NCBI GenBank assembly: GCA_910592005.1
Contig: CAJVPP010002763.1
Coordinates: 1-13,611 of the forward strand
Source: Funneliformis mosseae
Lineage: Eukaryota; Glomeromycota; Glomeromycetes; Glomerales; Glomeraceae
DNA: 13,611 nt
Direction of reading: 5' to 3'
Below, in pieces: positions 1 through 13,611 of the stretch. Position 1 is the first letter of the stretch. Every line of letters starts with the position of its first letter. The position numbers were made by a program, and so were the translations under genes. The notes under the pieces were generated by a model. The model was not told the DNA's origin. It saw only the letters and a program-made list of their open reading frames with translations, and ran no database searches.

Positions 1-549
1 AACTATATTTTTTATATAATAATTATATTATTAATATTAATATTTTATTTTTTATTAAAAAATTAATACTTTTTTATGTTTGTAGGCAAATTTGCCTGCA
101 TTATTAGACAAAGAAATAGTATCTAATTTATCATATATAATAGATACTAATGTAATAAATATAATGAAAATTATGCTTTATTTACTAGAATACTAAATAA
201 TTTTAATAATATATATTAAGAATTTCCATCTGAAGAATATGCAGAATTTATGCATATAATAATAAAATTTCATGTACAAAATCTACTTGCCAATACTTTT
301 ATACAATTTTTTAATAAATATTCAAATTATAATAATAATCCATTACTATTAATATTACAAGTTAGATGAGAATTTATGAAAAATTTAGAACTTTCATATT
401 TTGGATAGCGAAAAGAAAGTATATTTAAATATAAAGAAAAGAAATATATTTTTAAATATAGGATAGTATTTAATAATATACATCAAATTTTAATGAATGA
501 AGATATAATAAAGGAATTTATATTCAAATATAAATTATCTAAGAAAAAT

Positions 550-617
550 GTAAGTATAATTACTTAGAATATTATTTTATTTATTTATTATTATATTAAT
601 TTTTTTTTATTGATTAG
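550..617 (+). other. Predicted spliceosomal intron, element 1 transposase
   Basis: A 68-bp AT-rich segment starts with the strong donor GTAAGT and ends TTGATTAG. Splicing it joins the block ending KLSKKN to the block NVYTNIFNFN that precedes the doubled Trp motif, the order expected in the family. Confidence 0.55.
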
Positions 618-1251
618 AATTCCAATTAATGTATATACAAATATATTTAATTTTAATTAGTGAGAAAATCTAGAATAAAAGCTTCTTATCAAGTATATAT
701 TATACTAATTATTTTATATGCAAATGCTATACTTTGTGATCAATTAGGTAAAACTTCATGATATTCAATATTTATAATACTTAAAAATATTCCTTTAGCT
801 CATCATAATAAAACTGATGCTAAATTTTTATTATGATATATTCCTAGTTTTGAATATCATAGTTTATCAGAAAACAATTAATATAATTTTGCTCAGCAAT
901 ATTAAATCTTTTTTACTATACACTTGCAACAATATTATAACTATTAAGAGTTATAAGCAATAAAAGCATATATTTATATGTCAATAATAATATTAAGTGA
1001 TTTTATTCATATTTGGCATTAATAATTGCAAATTAACCTAAAGCATGTATTATGTGTGCTACTTATGGATTATCAAATTCTTTATATCCTTATCTTTTTT
1101 GCTTAATTGATCGTGATGCATTAAATAATGTTTATATTAAAAATGAAGACATTATTATTCGTAATGAGAATAATACCAAAAATATTTTATATTAAAATAA
1201 TAATAAATAAATCTCTATATATAATGTGAGAAATTCTTTATGAAAACTTCT

Positions 1252-1313
1252 GTAAGTAATTTTATATTTATATTTTATTTATTTTTTAAATTAATAATAT
1301 TTATGTATTATAG
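1252..1313 (+). other. Predicted spliceosomal intron, element 1 transposase
   Basis: A 62-bp segment starts GTAAGT and ends GTATTATAG. It lies just before the FDIYTICMIDC block. The open frame that begins at 1240 reads straight through it, which explains the run of hydrophobic residues there: that stretch is intron, not a membrane segment. Confidence 0.6.
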
Positions 1314-1895
1314 ATATTTTGATATTTATACTATATGCATGATTGATTGTATATATTATATAGACCTTGGTCTTTTTCAATATCAATTACAATTTATTGT
1401 TGAATTATTAAAATTTAATTATATTAATAATTCAATAAGAATTCTTGAAAAATTTTTATTTCAAATTCCTTGATATTCAAATCTTAAAATTTTTAAAAAT
1501 AGATTTGAAAGATTAAATTGATTAACTGTATCTGAATACTGTAATTTAATGAAGATTATACTATTTATTTTAGATGAACTAATATTAGATAAAAATCTTA
1601 ATAAGAATTTGTGAGACCTTTTTTATTATAGATTAATATGTATATATGGAAGTATCAACAAGAATATACTGAATCAGTTTTTTATGAATTTGAGATAAAT
1701 TTACTAATAATAAATAATTTTTTATATATTTGTTTAATAAAAATTAATGCTAATTTATTTTTTTTTATTAAAAGAAATCTATTATTATATAGAGTAATTT
1801 ATTTATTATACTCATGTTAAAAATTTCTCCATCAAATTTAAACTTATCCAAATTACACAGTTGGTATTATCATTTAATACCATCTATTCATCAGT

Positions 1896-1898
1896 TTG
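1896..1898. repeat. Left target-site duplication (TTG) of element 2
   Basis: TTG here and TTG at 9013-9015 flank the inserted element. A 3-bp duplication is what CACTA-type transposons make. Keeping one copy restores a glycine codon (g1898 plus gt9016-9017) between HQF and IINRF, matching the conserved Gly of the family. Confidence 0.75.
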
Positions 1899-1930
1899 TA
1901 CAGTTCAAATAAAGAAGTATCAGATTATCA
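1899..1930 (+). repeat. Left terminal inverted repeat of element 2
   Basis: It starts TACAGTTCAAATAAAG and pairs with the right end over 32 positions (about 21 matches, no gaps). The inferred older form starts CACAG. The T at position 1 and the A at positions 9 and 13 look like deamination of C or of the opposite-strand C. Confidence 0.75.
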
Positions 1931-2145
1931 AGTTTTAGACAAATATCAGGATAAATTAGGAATCGATATTTACTGAAACTTGATATAGTCACATCAGATA
2001 AGTATCGATATAATTGTTACCATATGATATTTAAATATAGGACCTGATATTATAAAGGAAAATCAAGTAAGTTCCAGAATTTTATAGGATAATCTGATAG
2101 ATTCTGTATTCTAGAAATTCATTGTCCTATCAGATACCCGATAGC
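1918..2145. repeat. Left subterminal zone of element 2: TATCAG/CTGATA motifs in both orientations
   Basis: TATCAG or ATCAGATA occurs at 1918, 1944, 1993 and 2128, and CTGATA on the plus strand at 2044 and 2094. The zone ends with the hairpin-like CTATCAGATACCCGATAG (2126-2143). Clustered short motifs in both orientations just inside the ends are typical of CACTA elements, where they bind element-encoded proteins. Binding is inferred. Confidence 0.6.
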
Positions 2146-2500
2146 TTTTTGATTTACTACGTCAAATTGGTTAATACATAGTAATTTTTATTAAAGTTTT
2201 TGGATTAATATTTTTTTTAAAAAAAATAGAACAATTATATTTCACAATCCAACTACTAGGACAAATTTTTTTTAATCAATAATATATATTTATTGCCATA
2301 TTAACTAAGAGTTAGTTACAAGCTACAATTATTTCATAATTTGCTAATTATCTTATAATTCAAAAATGTATTACTTAATTAACCCAATTAATATATTAGA
2401 ATGTAATACAAAACCTAAATTAAAATAAAATGTAACATTAAAATCTCTCGTAATAAAAAAAACTCTCTCTCGAAAATAAAAATGCATATACCATTAATAA
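2146..2500. other. AT-rich spacer between the left subterminal zone and the transposase 3' end
   Basis: About 355 bp without a recognisable gene. It contains A/T homopolymers near 2207-2230 and a short CTCTCTCTCG stretch near 2463. It probably contains the transposase 3' untranslated region (minus strand), but I see no clear polyadenylation signal. Confidence 0.4.
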
Positions 2501-5500
2501 TCAAATATGAAATTTTCTATTTATTGGAATAATTGACATGTACTTTTTTGGTTTTCTTTGACTGACTTCAAAACTTCCTAAAACAAATTGACATAAAATA
2601 TTGTGGATAGGAATAATACAATCTCTTTCAACTTCATAGAATTTTGATTTTCATAATTCGATGTTGCAGGATTTATCATCATCTATTTTGCAGTGGAATC
2701 TAATATTGTGGTTTTCAGACGGTTTATACCATCTAACAAATGCTAAATAATGTGTATTTTCCTCCAGTAGATGAACTGTATATTCAAAATAGAACTGGGC
2801 TTGACCAGGGTATACATCAGAATTATCATCATCTGTAAAGAAACGGACCAATATTTTTGCTGATTTGACATATTGAGAAGATAAGGTTGACCCAAACACT
2901 TCCGTTACAATTCTTAATTGGCTAAATTGATTAACATTTGGATCAACAGGAATAGAAAAATCTGGAGTATTATGAATTCGTAACAATGTAATAAAGTCTT
3001 TATTGTATGTATTACAATAAAAATCAACTAATAACTTTTGAAGTTCTTGCTGCAGTGTCACATTTTATTTTAATGGCCTAGAAAAGAGCCTGGAAATAGT
3101 TCAAAACCATAAGCTACTTCTTTTTCTATTTTTGTTAATAGTAGGCAGAATGTTCAATATTCTTTATCAGAATATTCATCATATGTAGAAAGACTTTTAA
3201 CTGAATCTTTCAGTTTTAATATTTCAAGATTTTCTTGAAAATGCCAGTTCTGTTCAATGCGAGATGTTAATTCATCCAAAAGAGTATTATTTTGAATGAC
3301 ATTCATAAGCTCTAATTCAATCTTTCTATGATTATTATTAAATGATCCTAAGTATTTAGATATTCAGTAAATGCTAGTATCAAACAATAATATTAACAAG
3401 ATGATTACCTAATAATCCATTCATATTTTCCATTGAGTAATACCAAAAGGCATACTAAAGACCATAATCCAACATGCATTCACATAAACACATGCATAGA
3501 TGTAAATTTAGAGAAATTTTTTTAGATCCGTATATTCGTTCAATTTCTTTAACCATTTTTACTAAACGCTGATAGGCTTCTATTAGATCATTTTTTGATA
3601 CTATTCTATACACTAAAATGTTGCAAGTACGGACGAAATTTACCAGAATTTTTCAGTCAACTTCTTTCAAGAGATCCCAAGTAATGGTTATTATATATAT
3701 TAATATGAATGTTTTCTACTGATCTGCAGAAAAACTGGAAAAACCTTTTCCTGTATCTATTTTGCTTAGAAGCCTACCAATATCAGTTGGTACTTGTATT
3801 TGATTGGCTCTCTTTTGCATAATTGCAAGATCAGATGAGATGAGCTTTTTTTTTCAATTCATAGTCTCATCATAATCCACTTTGTAATGCTGAGAAAAAG
3901 ACAATGCATAGGATCTATAATTAGAAATCATATAGGATTAAAGTAAGATAAGCGATATATCTCAGACCTTTGTATAAAGGTTTTTAATATATATTTTCGT
4001 CTTTGCTCATCTGTTTTACAGTTTTTTCATTCAAAAGCATTTTTTTTAACCTCTTCAACATTTCTTTCTATAAACCAGCTATCCATATTAGCCAATTCTC
4101 CAAAATTCAGCTGGTTTTTTTATCAAAATTAGCATATTTAAGATATAGATAATACGCAATATTCGCAGATATATACCTGCATAGCTTTCTTGCTGCAGGT
4201 ATATCACAAGCACAGCAAATAACAGCCCCTCTGATCATCTTTCTATTAGAATTTTTGAAAGATTCTGGTAATTCTATTTCTCGCCATAATTTAACTAATT
4301 GATTAACTAAAGGGCTAAATAATAATTTATTTGGTGTAGTTTTGGTTCCTTTAGACTCAGAATCATTGCTAACGTTAATATATTGGATGGCTTAAATTGT
4401 TTATTACGAGGCAAGTTATATATTATAGCATAGATTGCTTTTGTGCTATATTGAGAGTTTTCAAAGGGCTGGAACCAATCTATATTAAGCATTATTCCAA
4501 TATGAATATCTGTTAAATTTGGCTGAAAAAAGATCGAATCATTTTCATTTTTAAAAGATTTTCATATTCTCCCATCATATATTCAGCAAGAATTTCTGGA
4601 TCAGAAAGACGATTAACCCACTTTTTACAAGATTCTTCAAATCCTTTTCTTTTAAATAGGAGATTCAACTGGTGTTTTAAGCTGATAGTGAAAAATATTG
4701 AACTTGGCTTTTTGATTATTCCATTTTTTATATTAACACATTTGTATAAAATTCTTTTATAGGCATTTCATTTATTATTCATTGAATGATTCAGAAATTC
4801 TTAGAATATATACTTAGTGATTTTAGATGTGATTTTAGGTGTGATTTTAGGACAATCACTAGACACATTAGCAATATTATATAACTTACAACAGTTTTCA
4901 CAGTTCGCATAGTTAATTAGATTGGTACAAATGTCAAAATTCTTTTGCATTACATATTGTCACTGGGTTCATTTTCATTTATCTTAATGTTTAAGTTAAA
5001 AGGCTGCAGCAGCTGATTTTACACGTTGAAGTTTCTGATCTTAGGATTTTCTCTAAGTCCTACAGGTATCCATTATACTTAAATCAACTCAGCAATTTAT
5101 CACGTCTTAGAGTTTAAGATATATTTAATTGAACTCATAATAACGAACTCAATAGCAAGTTAGTGTAGTGTATCATAACAATTCTAGATAAGAGATAATA
5201 TTGAAGGGAAAAGTAGTTTGTGTAAATTTAAATGGATTTCTTTATTTATAACTTAAAACTCGCAAAAGAGTTAATTTACAACTTAAGCAAAAAGTTATTC
5301 TATTTATACAAATGAATTTGCTACAGCTAACTATTTGCTACACTATAAATTAACTAAATATATATATATGTCTCAATAAAAGTATACTTAAATATAATAA
5401 AATAATAAAAATAATAAAAAGAAATAAAATAAATTACAGATGTTAAAGAAATTATAAATAAAATAAAGTAAACAGATTAAACAGACTGTTTAGAAAATAC

Positions 5501-6297
5501 AGGAAAAACAAGCATGTCAGGTGAAACAGAAATTATTGCTGATCACTATTTGGCATAGCAGTGACATCATCTAATGTGAAATCATTATTGATTAACATAT
5601 CCCACATGATATTTGGAATTGCAATTTCTTCAGTTGATAATATAGAGAAGTGGGAAAAGCAGAGAATAATTTTTTGTTTATATTTATAAGAATATAATGA
5701 AAAAACTTAAAGAGTGAATTTGTGGTCACATTAGATAGTCAAAACCTCTCCTGGTACTTCAAAATCCATATTATAATCCATAAAAAGGAATCATCAAAGC
5801 TTTCTTTAGCATACTTAAAATCATTTTTTTCTGATTCAGTTTCTAGTACATCAAAATTCAATTGAAAATCTTCGTCTGAATCGTCTGAGGAGTTTTCTAA
5901 AGCATCATCTTCAAAGGTTCTTTTATTGTCTTCTTCAGATATATCATTACCATCATCACTATTACTATCAAAAAACAGTTTGCTTACTACTTCCCGAATT
6001 GAGATTTTAGACTTCCTTTTTTTCTGAGAATAACTGACATTTTTTTAACTAAAAATGAATAGTTTTCTTCATATGATTTTTGTGGTTCTTTATTATTAAT
6101 ATCTATAAGATTTTTTAAAGGAGATAATAGAGTAACAGATAAAAATAGATTAGTCGATTCTTTAATTTTCCTTTGAGATACAATAGGCGCAATCTTTTTT
6201 TTAGAATAGGCTGATTTAGTTCTAGGGTCTACCAATTTTCCATTACAAGCTTGACAATAACATGATATATGTTTTCAGGTTTAGGAAAAAGGAACAT
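2501..6297 (-). pseudogene. Plavaka/Tnp2-type (CACTA) transposase of element 2, decayed
   Basis: Blocks in translation order: CYCQACNGKLVDP (6225-6263, CxxC); basic KKRKSK, a possible nuclear signal (6003-6026); an Asp/Glu-rich stretch (about 5820-5980); WIIIWILKYQERF (5742-5780); CENCCKLYN (about 4880-4902); KKWVNRLSDPE (about 4597-4630); DGRI-stop-KSF (about 4550-4576); MLNIDWFQPFENSQYST then NILTLAM (4307-4492); ICCACDIPAARKLC (about 4180-4225); DSWFIERN; DPMHCLFL (about 3891-3914, likely catalytic); ENMNGLLG (about 3420-3445); and a C-terminal domain with YLAFVRWYKP and CNIEL-stop-KS ending NRKFHI with its natural stop at 2501-2503. At least seven Trp positions are stops and several 1-nt frameshifts occur. 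The 136-codon frame at 2651-3061 opens at GTG and is only a slice of this gene. A segment at about 4970-5530 does not fit. The 6297 start is tentative. Confidence 0.8.
4970..5530. other. About 560 bp of non-coding AT-rich DNA interrupting the transposase pseudogene
   Basis: The family normally has only a short linker between the WI..WI..YQ.RF helix region (5742-5780) and the CxxC block (about 4884). Here some 560 bp of stop-rich sequence intervenes, including an A-rich run near 5388-5435 and a repeated GAACTCA pair near 5134-5155. It may be a small insertion or an unusually long intron. No clean inverted repeats or target duplication were seen. Confidence 0.4.
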
Positions 6298-6806
6298 ATG
6301 AAGAAGTTTTGTTACTTTTATTTAAAGATATTGTTAATTATATCAATTTGAAAATGATTGAAAATTTTTAAAATGAAATTGTAAGTTTTTATATTGTATT
6401 TTTACTTAACATAGCTAATCTGATATACTAATAGTTTAATATATGACTTTTTACTAAATATAGATCTGATCATGAAGTTTATTTAATATATAAATAGTTA
6501 AACATGATACAGCTTTAAGTTGAATGAATTTTTTCTCAGAGATCACAAAGTCTATTTAATATATAAATAGTTAAATATGATACGAATTTAAGTTGAATGA
6601 ATTTCTTCTCAGAGACAAAGAAAAAAAATTAAGAAAAAATATTATATCATAGTAACTTTCTTTTACTAAGTGTTTAATATACAAACTTCTAAATACAGAT
6701 TATTATATTGGTTATATCTGATTTGTTAAAAAAAACACTTATATATTAACGATTTTATTAGTTTACAAAATTATAAAATCTATCGAAGTAAGAAAATTCA
6801 AGAGAA
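6298..6806. promoter_or_regulatory. Intergenic region between the two divergent genes of element 2
   Basis: About 510 bp, very AT-rich, with no coding resemblance. It separates the start of the minus-strand transposase from the plus-strand accessory gene, so it should hold both promoters. It contains a 73-bp tandem duplication (6468-6613). Promoter function is inferred from position only. Confidence 0.45.
6468..6613. repeat. Tandem duplication, 2 x 73 bp
   Basis: Copies 6468-6540 and 6541-6613 abut exactly and differ at 8 of 73 positions, 7 of them transitions. Each contains the imperfect palindrome TATTTAATATATAAATA, and each ends TTCTCAGA. Confidence 0.9.
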
Positions 6807-7081
6807 ATGTCATTATACAATAGGGAAGAGTCACTATACAGAGAAGGTTCATATGGAAGTAAAAGGCATATACATGTAAGAGGTAGAAGTTGAACTTTAC
6901 GTATTCTTATATCATCAGAAAGAAGAGGCAGAGTACTAAGTTGTACTTCTAATTTATTAGAAAGAGAGGCAGAGACCGAGAAAGAAGAAGAAAAGAAAGA
7001 AGTGTTAGTAAGGATTATAGAAATATTAGAGGGAAAAAAGAAGCAAAAGAAGTGAAAGTAGAGAAATTAGAAATCAGAAAG

Positions 7082-7164
7082 GTAATAAATTTTTATGGTA
7101 AGAAATATTGAATATTAATAAAAAGATTTATTACAATTTGTTATTTCAATAAAAAATTGTGGAG
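7082..7164 (+). other. Predicted intron 1 of the accessory pseudogene
   Basis: It begins GTAATA after LEIRK and ends GGAG before LHSTV. Removing it joins the basic exon to the SRTR exon without a frame change. Confidence 0.5.
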
Positions 7165-7335
7165 TTACATTCAACTGTCTTGAAATTGATTGAAGAAGTA
7201 AGAGAACTTTATCACAGAAATAAGAGTCGAACAAGAATATCTTCATTGTCTTCTGACTCTTTAGCTAACAGGAATTTTAAAGAAACCCAGAATAATTTGA
7301 AACCTATGAATAACAACTATAAAAAAGCTTTTTGT

Positions 7336-7455
7336 GTTAGTATGAGTACTTGATTGATTGTCATTTTTTAATGGTTAGTTTATAATTGTGTAAATATATT
7401 TAATTTAACTAATACTTTTTATCTATTGTAAAATAATGTTGATCAAATTTTAAAG
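7336..7455 (+). other. Predicted intron 2 of the accessory pseudogene
   Basis: The donor GTTAGT at 7336 and acceptor TTAAAG at 7455 join KKAFC to GLNDSLRLNHEKF in frame. The segment contains ACTAATAC, a good branch-site match. An alternative donor, GTATGA at 7340, would break the frame. Confidence 0.45.
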
Positions 7456-8022
7456 GGTTTGAATGACTCTTTAAGGTTAAATCATGAAAAATTTTAGACT
7501 GAAATCGAAGTGTACGTTATTCAAAATATGATACTAGTTATAAAAAGGGTATTCAGAGATAGATTCCAATATACTAACGCAAAAATGAAGAAGGTTCTAC
7601 AGAAACTTCATTGCGATAGAAGAGATGCGCATACCGTTTCATTAAATTTTTTAAAGTCTAAGGCAAACAAGCAAAGAGTTAGTGTAAATAGTAGACGAAA
7701 AGATGTAAGTATTATATGGTTTAAGGATAACTTTATATAGAATCAATATTCTACATTCATTTCAAAATTTCATTTTGTTTAATGGAGGACTTTTTATTAC
7801 TTCTGAAAACTCATTAATTACATTAATATTTATTATTGTATTTATTACAAAAAAAAGTATCAGTGAAAAAGAGCACTACAACATATACTAGATGCTAATG
7901 ATCAAATGCTAACGGACTTACAATTTTCAATGGAATAGAATGATTAGATTAAGGACCTAAAAAAGGTCATTGATGATTCTAGTTACCACTTGACGAACTT
8001 TCTGAATCAGATAATGAAAAAG

Positions 8023-8091
8023 GTAATGCATTTTTATCACATATAGTTATTAATACTCTATTGATTAAGTATTAATCACTTTCTTTTCTAG
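8023..8091 (+). other. Predicted intron 3 of the accessory pseudogene
   Basis: A 69-bp segment from GTAATG to TTTTCTAG, with TATTAATCAC upstream of a pyrimidine-rich acceptor, following the exon ending NQIMKK. Confidence 0.55.
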
Positions 8092-8417
8092 CATAAGAAG
8101 AAAAAGATAAGAAGATTCGTCCATTTAGAAATGAAAATTCAAATCATATTATTTACATATACGACAAGAGATAGAGATCGCAAAGGGTAAAACATTGATT
8201 TTAGCATTTAATAATTATTGATAGTATGTAATATTATAAATTTATTAATGACAATTATTGAATATGATCTAAATTTTTTTATTAGGTTCGACAATTTTTA
8301 CAGTATGCAGATTTCATAAGAAAAACTACCTAAAACATCAAAGTTGCAAGAAAAAGGTGGTATGATGATAATACATACGTAAATAACTCCAAGCTGCCTT
8401 TCGATACTTCAAAATAG

Positions 8418-8726
8418 ACCATTTCATCTTCATACTGATCTAAATAGAACTGTGTTTATTTACTAATAATTGTAATTTATTTTCATTTATAATTAATTGT
8501 TTATTTTTTATATATATAGAACGTTGTGTTTAATTAATAGTGTTTAACAATATAATTATCAATAGCATATCATTTATTAATAGTGTATTACAATAATAGA
8601 TATAGTAATAGAATAATGAATTGTATAATATTTTATTTTATTTTAAAATGTTATTTATAACATAATATTAAATAAAGTCAGCATATTACATGAAATTAAT
8701 TATCTATATTGATATATAAATTAAAT
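8418..8726. other. AT-rich spacer between the accessory gene and the right subterminal zone
   Basis: About 310 bp of A/T-dominated sequence with no coding resemblance and few structured repeats. It is likely 3' flank of the accessory gene. Confidence 0.4.
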
Positions 8727-8998
8727 ATCAGGCTCTACATAAAAATGATATATACCTGATTTATTGAAAAATTATATACACATCAGGTTATATAAGGATA
8801 TCTGATGTTCCTTCTGATATTTGTTCTAAATTTATATGATTCTTACCTGAATTATCCCAACCTGAATATCCTATAAATTATTTGTGATTATTGCTAAAAA
8901 CTGGTTAGAAATCATATAGGGATATCAGATTTCTTTCAAACTGAATTCGATTAAAAAAAAGAGGACTATCAGGTGACCAATGATCACTTGATAGCCTT
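8727..8998. repeat. Right subterminal zone of element 2: TATCAG/CTGATA motifs and terminal hairpin
   Basis: ATCAG-type motifs near 8728, 8773, 8924 and 8967 and CTGAT or CCTGA motifs near 8757, 8801, 8812, 8838 and 8861 run in both orientations. The zone ends in a hairpin, CTATCAGGTGACCA / TGATCACTTGATAG (8966-8994), with 12 Watson-Crick pairs, one G-T pair and one mismatch. It mirrors the zone at 1918-2145. Confidence 0.6.
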
Positions 8999-9012
8999 TC
9001 ATTCGACCTGTG
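8981..9012 (-). repeat. Right terminal inverted repeat of element 2
   Basis: On the minus strand it starts CACAGGTCGAATGAAAG and pairs with 1899-1930. It is the better preserved end, keeping both CpG-derived G positions that the left end has lost. Confidence 0.77.
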
Positions 9013-9015
9013 TTG
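9013..9015. repeat. Right target-site duplication (TTG) of element 2
   Basis: The second copy of the TTG found at 1896-1898. The element 1 gene resumes at the next base. Confidence 0.75.
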
Positions 9016-9117
9016 GTATTATTAATAGATTTACAAGTGAAACATATGATTTTTACATAAATTTAATATCATACAACTATATTGTATAACAAATAAATAT
9101 CAAATTAATACACAAAT

Positions 9118-9172
9118 GTAAGCTAATATATGCTATCAAAACATATTAACAAATATTATATTAAAATTTCAG
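9118..9172 (+). other. Predicted intron in the element 1 transposase
   Basis: A 55-bp segment from GTAAGC to AATTTCAG with ATTAAC inside. It separates the FTSETY block from the SIYHRIISKKATKK block. Confidence 0.5.
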
Positions 9173-9564
9173 CTATAATCTTATATTAAAAGTATTTATC
9201 ATAGAATTATATCTAAAAAAGCTACTAAAAAAATGATACAACATACAATTGATCAATTTACAAATCAACTAGAAAATACATAAAATAATACATATGAATT
9301 ATGGATTTGTGAATTAAAAAACTTAAATTAGCTATTAATGATTATCTTTAAAATATTGAAAAATGGTTATTACAAAAAATTGGAAATAAAATTATTTGTA
9401 TAGAATTGTTTGAATTTGCATATTTGGATAATGATTATAAAATAATTATTTATACTACACCTGATTATTATGAATAAAATGCCTATTCAAAAGTCTATGT
9501 TAAAATAGATGAATTAGAACATAATAATCATTACTTAATAGATAATAGTCTATGCTATGCAAAG

Positions 9565-9639
9565 GTATTATATTAATATGAACTAATAATTTTATTAAAT
9601 TTTTATTATAACAATTTAATATTATTTTACATATTATAG
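9565..9639 (+). other. Predicted intron in the element 1 transposase
   Basis: A 75-bp segment from GTATTA to ATTATAG with GAACTAATAA as a possible branch site. Removal joins CYAK to VLFIL in frame, matching the continuous CYGKVLL-type segment I recall from the family. Confidence 0.65.
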
Positions 9640-9909
9640 GTTCTTTTTATTCTTCAGATTAATTCAAAAAAACTGGATCAACAGAATATTGATCTTACAC
9701 TTGTTTATTGGTATGACTTTGCATATCCAGATGATATTCAAAAGCAATACTTTTATAAATGTGTTATTATTAAACATGTCGAATATTATACATTAATTCC
9801 TATTGCTTCAATTGTAAATATAGTGCATATTATACCAAAATTTAATAACCCAAGAATATTTTTTTGTAAATAATTATATTAAATATTATTAAATAATTAC
9901 TTAATATTT

Positions 9910-10177
9910 AAATGCTTTTAAAATAATAAATTCACATGCTTAATTAGTATTTTTTTTAGAATAATTAATAAATATTAAATCAAAACACTTTTTAAATATA
10001 TTTTAAAATAGCAGTTACAAAGCATTTATAATTAGAATTTTATTTGTATTATATTACAGTAGTAAATAAATGCTTGTTTTAAACATGAAAAAGTGCATAG
10101 TGAGCATTAAGCATTCAGTAAATGTTATCAATGATTGTGCTTAATAAATATAGGGTAAATGCTAGGCCAACTTCGTG
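9910..10177. repeat. Right subterminal zone and candidate right end of element 1
   Basis: AATGCT or AGCATT cores occur at 9911, 10020, 10069, 10103, 10110 and 10158, plus CATGCT at 9935, in both orientations. This is far above chance for a six-base word in about 260 bp of this composition. The bottom strand starting at 10177 reads CACGAAGTTGGCCTAGCATT, a plausible CACTA-type end running into the motif. CpG density rises sharply just beyond it. Confidence 0.5.
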
Positions 10178-12455
10178 ATGGAATTAATATTTTTCATAGA
10201 AATCACCAATCTGAAAGCGTTATATAAATACATAGTATTCAAATGTTATTAACAAGTTTCATTATAAAAAACTGCAATTTTAATTTACGACGACATTTCA
10301 AACATGTCAACATTTATTCTTACGATTGATTGGTTAAACAATAGATAAGTCACCTATTTACAAATATTTTTATACATTAACTGGTCTAGTTTACACTTTC
10401 ATGGAGAAATTTATCAATAAACAGATTTTTTTTTAAATCTACTATTTTCTTTGGTGGACGGAAAATTTGAAGAATCTTTAGATTTTCGACAAGTTAACCC
10501 TTCTAAAATTGCAAGTTTTGTCAATATATTGTACAAATTGAATTCTTAGAACGTAACGGAGGAACTTGGGATTCACAAAACTTTGTTCATTACGCACTTT
10601 TTAAAATCACTTTTTTTATTATGAGCTTTGCTTTATTATTCTCATTTTCAAATATAATATACTTTTTTATCATATTATTATTTCTTGAGCATATATCATT
10701 AATTAATTATCTTTAATAAATTGCAATGACCTATTAAATAAACGAACATCCAATTTTAACTTGATGTAATGTGGTAAAGGAAAGTTCATACATATCATTT
10801 ATTAAGTTATAAAAATCTTGAACTAGAAACAGTTTAAAAAATAAAAATTTAATTAATAAACTACTGTTACATTGAATATAATTTCGCCCGAAATCTCCAT
10901 AATTCCGCATGGATCGCTTTCGATATTTGTGTTTAGTGTAATTAGTCGTATGACAAAATTTCAAGAACGCCAGGATGTCCTAATTATATATTTTTTTTTT
11001 ATATACACAAACCGGAAATTCTTAAACAGCCAACATTCTACGCTCACCCTTATTATAATTTGCGTACATTAACCTCAAAATCCTTCCTTTAACACCTTCA
11101 CGACATTTTCGCCTTCGCCGTTTAATGTTTTAGATCTCGTATTTGTAACTTCGTTTATTTTTTTAATTTACGATTTTTAATGCTATTCAAATATTTTGTA
11201 ATTATTCGTAGTTTCGCTGTCTTAATTAATTTATTGCAAAAGTTTAGAGCGTCGACGTTGAGGAAATACTGACTTGATAATATAAAATAAATATATGTCA
11301 CATTAACTTCATAATTACTTCATTGTTATTCAATTAATACCTTCTGTTACATTACAAATTGTTTATAAATACATAAACAAAAGAACTGGATACATCACTA
11401 CTTTATAAAAAACGGGTAATCCAATTTGATTTAAAATTGATTGAAAATCAAGGAGTAGTGCTCCGTAAGAGTCTGATCGGGTCGGGTTCGAGTTCGAACC
11501 CGTTACAGCTGTTTTCATATTTTTTGGGGATTCGACTCGAAATTTCAAGGGTAATATTAATGCCGAAATAAGCACATACGGGCGTGAATTGTATTAGTTT
11601 TAAGACCACATCTATTGGTTGTTATCGCAGAGAAAACTCGCTCTACTTGTACACTTGTTGCTTTATAAAAAAAAATGTACAGTTAATGTTTAATAATCGA
11701 TAATTTTTTTTTTATCTATAATTCTACACTCCGCAATGATTTTTGTATTCTAGAAAAAGTTGTACTTTTGGTAACTTCGATAGGTTCATTCATTATTTAT
11801 TTTTTACAAATTAATGTCGCGTCAATTTATATAGATATTGTTTAATTTTCATCCGGGTCACTCAGCTCGGAACACTATCAAGGAGTTGTATTTATTTATA
11901 TCATATATTCAGCAGTAAAAATATCACTTTCGATTATTTTTGTGAAATTAAACACAAAACTAAATTTTGAAATTTGCTACCTTTGCGAAAATATGTAATT
12001 AAAACATAAAGTAGGAAAAAAATAAACTTCAAACCTATTAACTCATGAGTTGATAAAGAATAAGTTAATTTTGTAACATTCAATGTACAATTATGGTATT
12101 CTTGTATATTACATTTAGCTTTAATGTTTGCTGGTGATATGAGAATATTTTGTCGTACAAATTAGGTAAATCATGTTCAAAACTTGTAGAAAAATTTACG
12201 AATAGATTAAAAAAAAAAAGAAAATGATGATCACACCTCAAAATATTTTTATTTGCTTAACGAAGAGTTCTTCCACAAACAAGATGAGCTTATCTGTCTA
12301 TCTATTTTAAATAAGAATTAAGTTCAAGTATTTAAGCATTGCCGACCGAAATGTTTTTCACTTCCTATAGATATGTTCTACATTAGAATATGATTGCTAA
12401 AATAATAATGTTAGACTTAGGATCAACCTGATATTCGTTTGCATCACATCATAAT
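10178..12455. other. Intergenic DNA with normal CpG content; no gene supported
   Basis: About 2.3 kb without a recognisable protein block or RNA gene. CpG is abundant (more than 50 in the first 1.9 kb by eye), unlike the transposons to the left. One plus-strand frame at 10448-10624 (58 codons, one TAG) starts SLVDGKFEESLDF and might be an exon relic, but I do not recognise it. Overlapping frames around 10734-11072 lack any support. A minus-strand frame at 11363-11575 opens at GTG and contains a 20-bp palindrome (11483-11502). Confidence 0.5.
11483..11502. repeat. Short GC-rich palindrome, 9-bp arms
   Basis: CGGGTTCGA, a 2-base centre GT, then TCGAACCCG. It is an island of GC in AT-rich DNA, preceded by another CGGGT unit. 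It is not a tRNA T-arm because the loop is only 2 bases. Confidence 0.7.
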
Positions 12456-12591
12456 TAATAGTTATTCGGCGGCACTTCGTGCCGAATAACTATTATATTG
12501 GGAAAATCAAATTTGATTCCCAATATTATTAGCTACCTTTTAGGTAGCGGTAGTTATTCGGCTCGAAGTGCCGGATAAGTGATTTATCCGG
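12456..12591. repeat. Cluster of four hairpins (foldback or MITE-like structure)
   Basis: Hairpin 1: TAATAGTTATTCGGC (12456-12470) pairs perfectly with 12481-12495, and the centre also holds CGGCAC-TTC-GTGCCG. Palindrome 2: 12495-12526, ATATTGGG arms symmetric except for two extra A. Hairpin 3: GCTACCT-TTT-AGGTAGC (12532-12548). Hairpin 4: CCGGATAA-GTGAT-TTATCCGG (12571-12591). The sequence TAGTTATTCGGCTCGAAGTG at 12551-12570 is a near copy of the hairpin 1 arm (one mismatch to the arm read from the opposite strand). Hence the whole 136 bp is built from related inverted units, like a small non-autonomous foldback element. Confidence 0.75.
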
Positions 12592-12728
12592 TTTCCCGTG
12601 ATTAAACTAACTTTTTTAAACTTTTTTTTTTATAAATAAATAATATTTTTTTCCCACAAACAATTTTTTCTCACGATATTTTTTCTTTTTTTTACGAATA
12701 ATTTACTTTCGCAAACTAAATTCCGTTA
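12592..12728. other. T-rich 5' flank of the Crypton-like gene
   Basis: Runs of T near 12621-12633 and 12671-12694 precede the first ATG at 12729. Promoter function is assumed from position only. Confidence 0.3.
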
Positions 12729-13611
12729 ATGGAAATTGTAAGTAATTTTACATATTAAAGCTATAAATTATATTAATTTTAATAACTAACAAATTTTTAG
12801 ACTTATTTCAAACCTACAGCTGAGGAACTTTCAAGGGTTCAACAAAGCCGTGTACCATTAAATACAGTTAAATGCATTGAAAAATGTGTCAATATTTTAA
12901 ATACTTGGCGCAAAATGTGGACTATACCTATACCTTAGAATCACTTTTCTCTAATGAACAAATAGAAAATGAAATGTGCGAATCTATATATGGTGTGAGA
13001 ACAACAAAAGGCGAAAAATACTCAAGAGCTTCCTTGAAAAATGCTGTTACCTCAATAAGCCGTCATCTTAAAAATTCCAAACCACAATGGAATTATAATC
13101 TTTTAGATAAAAAGAATTTTCCAAAACTTCATGCCACACTTGATGGTACCTTAAAAGAAATGAAAAGATTAGGAATAAGTGTTCCAAAACCACATGAAGT
13201 TTTAACGAATGAGGAATTAAAAATTATCTTATCTAATAATGCCATGTCTTCAAATGAACCTGAAGGGTTGCTTCAGAAAGTTTTTTTTTGGATTTGTCTG
13301 CTAGGATGGCGAACATTACAATTTACTAATTGATCAATTTGAATATACAGAAAATGGATTTATTTTTAAGAAATTTCAACAAAAAAAATGATCAAGAAGA
13401 ATTAGAAGGTAATCAATCTACCTTTAAAATACCATTTCCATCAGATATTAAGGGTGTGGCTGAACCTAATGCAGATATTTGTAAGTATATTTCAATGAGA
13501 CTTTTAAATTGTAAAACTAAACATTTTATTTAGGAATCTCAACAAATGCATCAGGTAAATATTTTTTTAATTATTTTATTATTAATTAAATTTCTACTTA
13601 ATTTTAATTTT
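12729..13611 (+). pseudogene. Crypton/DUF3504-like tyrosine recombinase-derived gene, frameshifted, cut by the window edge
   Basis: Exon 1 is ATG GAA ATT (12729-12737); after intron 12738-12800, exon 2 begins TYFKPTAEELSRVQQSRVP and continues VKCIEKCVNILNTW. After a 1-base slip in the A-run 12912-12915 it reads YTLESLFSNEQ, YGVRTTKGEKYSRASLKNAV, ISRHLKN, LDGTLKEMKRLGI, HEVLTNEELKIIL and LLQKVFFWICLLGWR. This is the order in DUF3504 proteins: core-binding region, linker, then the start of the catalytic domain. A second frameshift just after GWR (about 13307-13315), where the first catalytic Arg sits, moves the continuation EHYNLLIDQFEYTENGFIF to another frame. A third, at the 8-A run 13381-13388, restores IPFPSDIKGVAEPNADICKY. 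A stop (TAG, 13531-13533) follows and a donor GTAAAT lies at 13555. The last catalytic residues are outside the window. No transposase activity is expected. Confidence 0.75.
12738..12800 (+). other. Predicted intron 1 of the Crypton-like gene
   Basis: A 63-bp segment from GTAAGT to TTTTTAG with AACTAAC (12784-12790) ten bases before the acceptor. It is phase 0 and joins MEI to TYFKP. Confidence 0.75.

Follow-up and report, generated by a model that had tools for sequence, protein, structure and literature searches.

How one transposon came to lie inside the transposase gene of another, and at which bases it begins and ends, is the question raised by a 13,611-bp stretch of DNA from Funneliformis mosseae, an arbuscular mycorrhizal, root-symbiotic fungus of the Glomeromycota. 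This stretch, referred to as the window, is the entire contig C2763, and genome searches covered the 82-Mb F. mosseae assembly. The window holds a three-level nest consisting of a Plavaka element, an EnSpm element and a solo long terminal repeat (LTR). In all likelihood, a two-gene EnSpm/CACTA-type transposon with CACAG termini sits at a TTG site within an older Plavaka coding sequence, and was later hit by an LTR element and decayed. The nest is well resolved and of an ordinary kind, and the inner family is a newly delimited one within a known superfamily. The features that define the junction and the ends are as follows:

107-1898, plus strand: 5' portion of the pseudogene for the outer, Plavaka-like transposase (68.7-68.9% DNA identity to contigs C3831 and C563; the contig does not reach the 5' end of the element itself)
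1896-1898: left copy of the target site duplication TTG, equal to the right copy
1899-1915, plus strand: left terminal inverted repeat (TIR) of the inner element, TACAGTTCAAATAAAG
8996-9012, minus strand: right TIR, CACAGGTCGAATGAAAG (minus-strand reading)
9013-9015: right copy of the target site duplication TTG, equal to the left copy
9016-10180, plus strand: 3' portion of the outer element, with CTTCGTGATG at its end (the C1575 match stops at 10183, the C1035 match at 10180)

The inner element spans positions 1899-9012 (7,114 bp) and is bounded by TTG on both sides. Excision of 1899-9015 (7,117 bp, the element plus one TTG) joins CATCAGTTTG to GTATTATTAATAGATTT, and the rejoined outer frame reads SIHQF-GIINRF continuously across the junction. 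A preliminary description of this DNA had the outer frame stop at HQF (1897) and resume at GIINRF (9016) once 7,117 bp are removed, with TTG duplicated at the junctions, and had proposed searching for an uninterrupted outer copy; the frame and the duplications were confirmed, and two uninterrupted copies were found, on C3831 and C563. Both are paralogues at other genomic places and not an allelic empty site. The C3831 alignment runs up to 1898 and starts again from 9022 with 6 bases between, and that of C563 runs up to 1897 and starts again from 9022 with 7 bases between, in each case as expected of an empty site; the two thus cross the insertion site with zero bases gained or lost (zero footprint). 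Their identity to the window is 69% on the left side of the site and 69-82% on its right side. The C563 protein aligns to window 1793-1897 and then 9021-9118, with a frameshift at 9053, so that the outer gene is itself a pseudogene.

The other side of each boundary was read from further copies of the inner element. For this, the genome was searched with window 1840-2200 (left end) and 8700-9080 (right end). The left-end query found nine places, comprising the window, seven inner relatives and one outer relative ending at 1898. None of the seven inner relatives extends to the left of 1900 (query starts 61, 61, 61, 61, 62, 66 and 69). Seven of the eight other left ends align at 1899 and read CACAG or one base off at the aligned position, the C3395 end being diverged. 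The right-end query found four places, namely the window, C3311, C3948 and one outer relative, with C3311 stopping at 9012 and C3948 at 9014; the copies in both contigs end at the window's right TIR. The terminal consensus common to the copies is CACAGGTCRAATRAAAR. Among 12 ends including those of the window (nine left, three right), six read CACAG, five are one base off and one is diverged. TACAG was read at the left end of the window and at the right end of C3948 (on its strand), which look as if a terminal C had been lost to T, and the left terminus of the window probably began with C originally; the right end of C161 reads CACAA. The proposed boundaries hold to the base; both checks that the preliminary description had set for refutation were made, and its reading survived them, with further inner copies ending at these bases and uninterrupted outer copies present.

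Both ends were found in three copies, flanked, in the orientation of the element, by TTG in the window (7,114 bp), TTT in C3948 (7,009 bp) and TAA in C161 (7,288 bp), which answers the call of the preliminary description for paired ends with 3-bp repeats. The first listing of paired ends (16 rows) was pre-filtered for equal 3-bp flanks and was repeated without the filter; the flanks were equal in three of three both-ended copies either way. Without the filter, C161 had a single candidate right end at least 4 kb away, with equal TAA flanks, and the C3948 right end, identified by homology, gave TTT on both sides. Thirteen of the 16 rows, two of them repeats of C3311 rows, were dropped as chance matches, each having one end with 4 or 5 mismatches and no colinear element. 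Right-end candidates in C1742, C4056 and C321 were likewise rejected as chance, having unequal flanks and no supporting homology, and those in C1742 lay mostly in a simple repeated array. The C1742 and C4056 copies have left ends and no credible right end within the stretch examined, the right end of the C3311 copy (L019, L042) is clean but a left end was not found within the stretch examined, and the copies in C742, C1188 and C321 run off contig ends. The TIR pattern CACAGRTCRAATRAARRARTATCAG, allowing up to 3 mismatches, matched the genome 22 times compared to twice for the reversed control, and six of the 22 matches are the ends of the three both-ended copies. No more paired copies were found around the weaker matches (C439, C445, C318, C630, C786, C1081, C2432, C2560, C3240, C3564 and C3814), so the 22 matches do not stand for 22 elements. 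Two copies carry additional DNA: that in C3948 (L018, about 5541-6176) has approximately 635 bp more than the window copy, perhaps a separate nested insertion, and that in C4056 (L022, about 4326-5452) has approximately 1.1 kb extra at the position matching window 4192-4202.

The outer gene had been described simply as another transposase gene, and the C563 paralogue supports a Plavaka-type transposase, as judged from domain similarity: it matched PF18759 (Plavaka; cut-off 26.3 bits) with 42.5 bits within the region aligned to the window. A single C563 piece alone scored 19.4 bits, below the cut-off, and the window's own outer copy was not listed among the PF18759 matches in the genome. The right end of the outer element reads TGATG at 10180, and its 20-base end had three matches in the genome versus one for the control. 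C3831 and C563 stop matching before 10180 in the search that placed this end; C3831 still ends in AACTTCGTGATG, and C563 has diverged to TTTCGTGAAG. CATCA was not seen at the left break of C3831 and C563, and the outer left terminus was not found. According to the available text of PMC12730594, PlavakaA ends in TGT..ACA with a 2-bp duplication and PlavakaB in CATCA..TGATG with 2-3 bp. The outer element resembles PlavakaB in having the Plavaka domain over the cut-off in C563 and the TGATG right end, a comparison that covers the outer right end, the left end and the target duplication lying off the contig. Contig C3831 begins at base 1 (L027:1) exactly with the CATCACGAAGTT end of an outer-family element, perhaps an assembly break at a repeat edge.

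Between its ends, the inner element contains two pseudogenes, intergenic repeats and two motif-rich subterminal regions:

1899-2198: left subterminal region with five TATCAG motifs in both orientations
2651-6322, minus strand: tnp2-family (Transposase_21) transposase pseudogene, its N-terminus near 6322, with frame changes, stops and an LTR inside
6468-6615: two 73-bp tandem repeats between the divergent genes
7024-8444, plus strand: second gene (pseudogene), divergently transcribed, located by tblastn with P0142 of Rhizophagus irregularis
8713-9012: right subterminal region with four TATCAG motifs

Twelve of 21 transposase relatives found (258-488 residues) were aligned between 6322 and 2711. 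In tblastn, relatives P0127 and P0133 matched at 42-73% identity (for example at 6029-5595, 4956-4570, 4582-4319 and 4316-3924), and the outermost matches, by P0130 and P0121, reached 6322 and 2711, with the open frame continuing to 2651. Four relatives that align to the window gene were scanned against Pfam; P0133, the best of the relatives (58.6 bits), and P0127 (38.1 bits) exceeded the cut-off of PF02992 (Transposase_21, tnp2; 28.6 bits), and P0128 and P0136 remained below it. Through P0133 and P0127, the inner gene is predicted to encode a tnp2-type transposase. The motif CDIPAARK...CHRC is present in P0133 and CYRC in the C1742 copy, and the window copy has tyrosine in place of both C(2)C cysteines; neither the H(3-4)H motif nor the final acidic residue of the triad was located. 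R. irregularis proteins align along the window transposase gene, and a related F. mosseae open reading frame (ORF) on C3814 showed 36-55% identity to R. irregularis proteins. A sequence search of PDB with P0133 gave no match.

The second gene was delimited with P0142, residues 93-302 of which map to 7024-7989 and residues 314-398 to 8091-8444 (E 1.8e-59); judging from the sequence, its start codon may lie at 6807. All five homologues are from R. irregularis (48-59% identity, E down to 5e-63). P0142 and P0143 had only sub-threshold Pfam matches and P0145 had none, and codon-position counts were suggestive, the evidence for the gene being its homologues. Of these, two bear the name GLOIN_2v1792113, and GLOIN_2v1792112 is the name of a transposase match from R. 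clarus; such names suggest neighbouring genes. The 73-bp tandem repeats between the two genes are possibly a promoter region. TATCAG occurs nine times in the window's outer 2 x 300 bp; 1000 shuffles average 0.72 and never exceed 4. The outer ends of C3948 and C161 contain seven and nine copies, respectively, and the middles 0.2-0.5 per 300 bp; with TATCAG fixed as the motif, the left 300 bp has 3-5 in eight of eight copies, a number that for each copy was reached in 0-2 of 500 shuffles, and each of 111 middle windows has at most 2. A second gene and subterminal repeats, both expected of EnSpm/CACTA elements, are thus present.

EnSpm elements have CAC..GTG ends and 3-bp target site duplications (PMC12730594, available text), and CACTA elements have two ORFs, subterminal repeats and a 3-bp duplication (PMC8978399, available text). 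Like the EnSpm/CACTA elements (CMC) of plants and fungi, the inner element shows a 3-bp duplication, CAC..GTG termini, tnp2 similarity, subterminal repeats and two genes; it differs from them in having CACAG rather than CACTA ends and in the divergent arrangement of its genes. Homologues of both inner proteins occur in R. irregularis, for which CMC-EnSpm elements (PMC11075540, PMC8647823) and Plavaka elements (PMC11075540) are reported as present and expressed; the difference is that here, in another genus, ends and duplications are defined, whereas the available text of PMC11075540 and PMC8647823 does not give the termini of the R. irregularis CMC families. Several observations weigh against this assignment. 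None of the 12 ends reads CACTA, the terminal motif being CACAG. The window's own tnp2 matches (E 0.0011 and 0.024) fall under the Pfam cut-off, and the window, C3948 and C161 are absent from the 13 PF02992 matches in the genome. TATCAG was chosen after the ends had been inspected, and the copies are homologous and not independent; the commonest 6-mer of shuffled ends averages 6.5 (maximum 14), so that nine is not unusual once all 6-mers are admitted. No intact inner copy was found in the stretches examined. The element is accordingly not a CACTA element in the strict plant sense, and 'CACTA-like', as first proposed, stands in the broad EnSpm sense only.

The same evidence bears on two other accounts of the locus. 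Of the 17 positions in the window's terminal repeats, only 11 match, and better matches with equal 3-bp flanks occur at 63 of 640,000 position pairs nearby, so inverted repeats and a duplication in the window alone are not proof; the contig is, in addition, only 13.6 kb long. These facts would suit a chance or assembly junction of two unrelated transposase scraps with a coincidental frame and TTG, but the ends of other copies fall on the same bases, the outer paralogues span the empty site with the exact base count, and with C3831, C563, C3948 and C161 this account is refuted, leaving it next to no probability. The ends are proven by other copies and not by the window's own inverted repeats: the repeats that had been put forward as an independent line of evidence are real ends, without being independent proof within the window. 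A Plavaka element within a Plavaka element could be imagined given the recognisable resemblance between Plavaka and EnSpm transposases (PMC12730594, PMC11075540, available text) and given that a study of R. irregularis transposable elements places Plavaka under CACTA/CMC/EnSpm (PMC11075540, available text). Set against this, the inner termini CACAG..CTGTG are neither TGT..ACA nor CATCA..TGATG, four of four transposase relatives match PF02992 (two over the cut-off) and none of the four matches PF18759 at E 0.1, and none of the 15 PF18759 matches in the genome lies on a contig carrying an inner-element copy. We consider an inner Plavaka very improbable, and treat the inner element as EnSpm in what follows.

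The preliminary description called the inner element complete, which is true of its length; it is not working, and an insertion within its transposase gene had been missed:

4954-4957: ATAT, left copy of the LTR target duplication
4958-5639, plus strand: solo LTR, 682 bp, TGTCAC...TTGATA, within the transposase gene
5640-5643: ATAT, right copy of the LTR target duplication

The copies in C3948, C161, C321 and C2048, which align on both flanks, are without approximately 683 bp (window 4957-5640). The insert is very abundant, with at least 41 matches, 40 of the 702 candidates having been scored. This abundance, and the weakly inverted ends of the insert (TTGTCACTG and TTATCAACTG, one flanking base counted), would also fit a short DNA transposon (miniature inverted-repeat transposable element). 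Such an element is disfavoured by same-strand pairs of the repeat 4-8 kb apart on four contigs among the matches listed (C14, C1335, C1758 and C35). In three of three pairs with ends read (C14, C1335 and C1758), the inner flanks are common between contigs, the shared sequences lying downstream of the upstream copy and upstream of the downstream copy. Since same-strand pairs and shared inner flanks are as in LTR elements, the insert was identified as a solo LTR, and the short DNA transposon is regarded as improbable. C394 has one full and one weak match on opposite strands.

A sequence of events consistent with this nest can be proposed from family resemblance. A tnp2-type DDE transposase would have cleaved the DNA at the CACAG...CTGTG termini and opened the target with a 3-bp stagger, which would account for the TTG duplication. 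In maize Spm, TnpA helps to recognise subterminal repeats, and both proteins are made from one transcript; the second protein of the inner element probably assists, as TnpA does, in recognising the TATCAG motifs near the termini. An LTR retrotransposon later entered the transposase gene and presumably shrank to a solo LTR, and all layers then decayed, perhaps mostly by cytosine-to-thymine change. We infer the mobility of the inner element and the functions of both proteins from sequence. All layers of the nest are broken at this locus; the inner element, although full length, carries the 682-bp LTR, an altered base at its left terminus, frameshifts and stops.

Substitutions were counted in transposon copies. 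Between the window and C3948 inner copies, 556 transitions and 60 transversions were found at 6,359 sites (about 9:1), between the C3831 and C563 outer paralogues 679 and 58 at 5,881 sites, and in LTR end fragments 96 and 15 at 712 sites (17 of 18 fragments usable). Comparisons of distant copies gave transition/transversion ratios of only 0.9-1.8. The transition excess between the closest copies points to cytosine decay, and ordinary methylcytosine decay would be its simplest cause. C/T differences per context were CG 0.56, CA 0.30, CC 0.28 and CT 0.17 in the inner copies and CG 0.61, CC 0.48, CA 0.40 and CT 0.22 in the outer copies; CC and CA were thus hit more than CT in two DNA-transposon families, and the LTR fragments showed no CT deficit (CT 0.39, CA 0.28). 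On this basis, cytosine deamination beyond CpG, either methylation-driven or resembling repeat-induced point mutation (RIP), might have mutated these transposon copies, which we think doubtful. For R. irregularis, 2,876,042 methylated CG sites are reported, and in Gigaspora margarita RIP signatures were not detected, according to the available text of PMC8647823. When close copies are compared three ways, C-to-T change is favoured (CCT+GGA 132 versus TTC+AAG 54). Counting against it, distant outgroups (approximately 70% identity) give similar counts in either direction (C>T 77, G>A 88, T>C 88, A>G 73), we think as a result of decay in the outgroups too; with one test for it and another not, the C-to-T direction is not settled.

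For one EnSpm family of an arbuscular mycorrhizal fungus, the termini, the target duplication, the empty site and the two genes are now fixed, which can seed the annotation of the family across the Glomeromycota; in R. irregularis, two-thirds of the transposons are unclassified (PMC11075540, available text). The open-licence literature, covered by titles and abstract openings, yielded no paper that describes the inner family in Funneliformis, its termini or its two genes. The locus also provides a relative insertion order (Plavaka, then EnSpm, then LTR), and the transition excess makes silencing of transposons by methylation and deamination testable in these fungi.

Elsewhere on the contig, window 1-103 matches a stretch of C321 (L023:8326-8425) at 89%. 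A strongly palindromic repeat, GTTATTCGGCGGCACTTCGTGCCGAATAAC..., lies at 12451-12619; it occurs 50 times among the matches listed, window included, some being 95-99% identical over part. An Rfam search gave no match, and the palindromic repeat accordingly has no Rfam identification. Fragments of the RNA polymerase second subunit with several stops were seen on contigs C3090 and C2144, possibly pseudogenes or read-through exon edges. At window 12881-13533, two ORF pieces of 150 and 67 amino acids gave nothing over the Pfam cut-off; we take them to resemble a tyrosine-recombinase (Crypton-type) protein.

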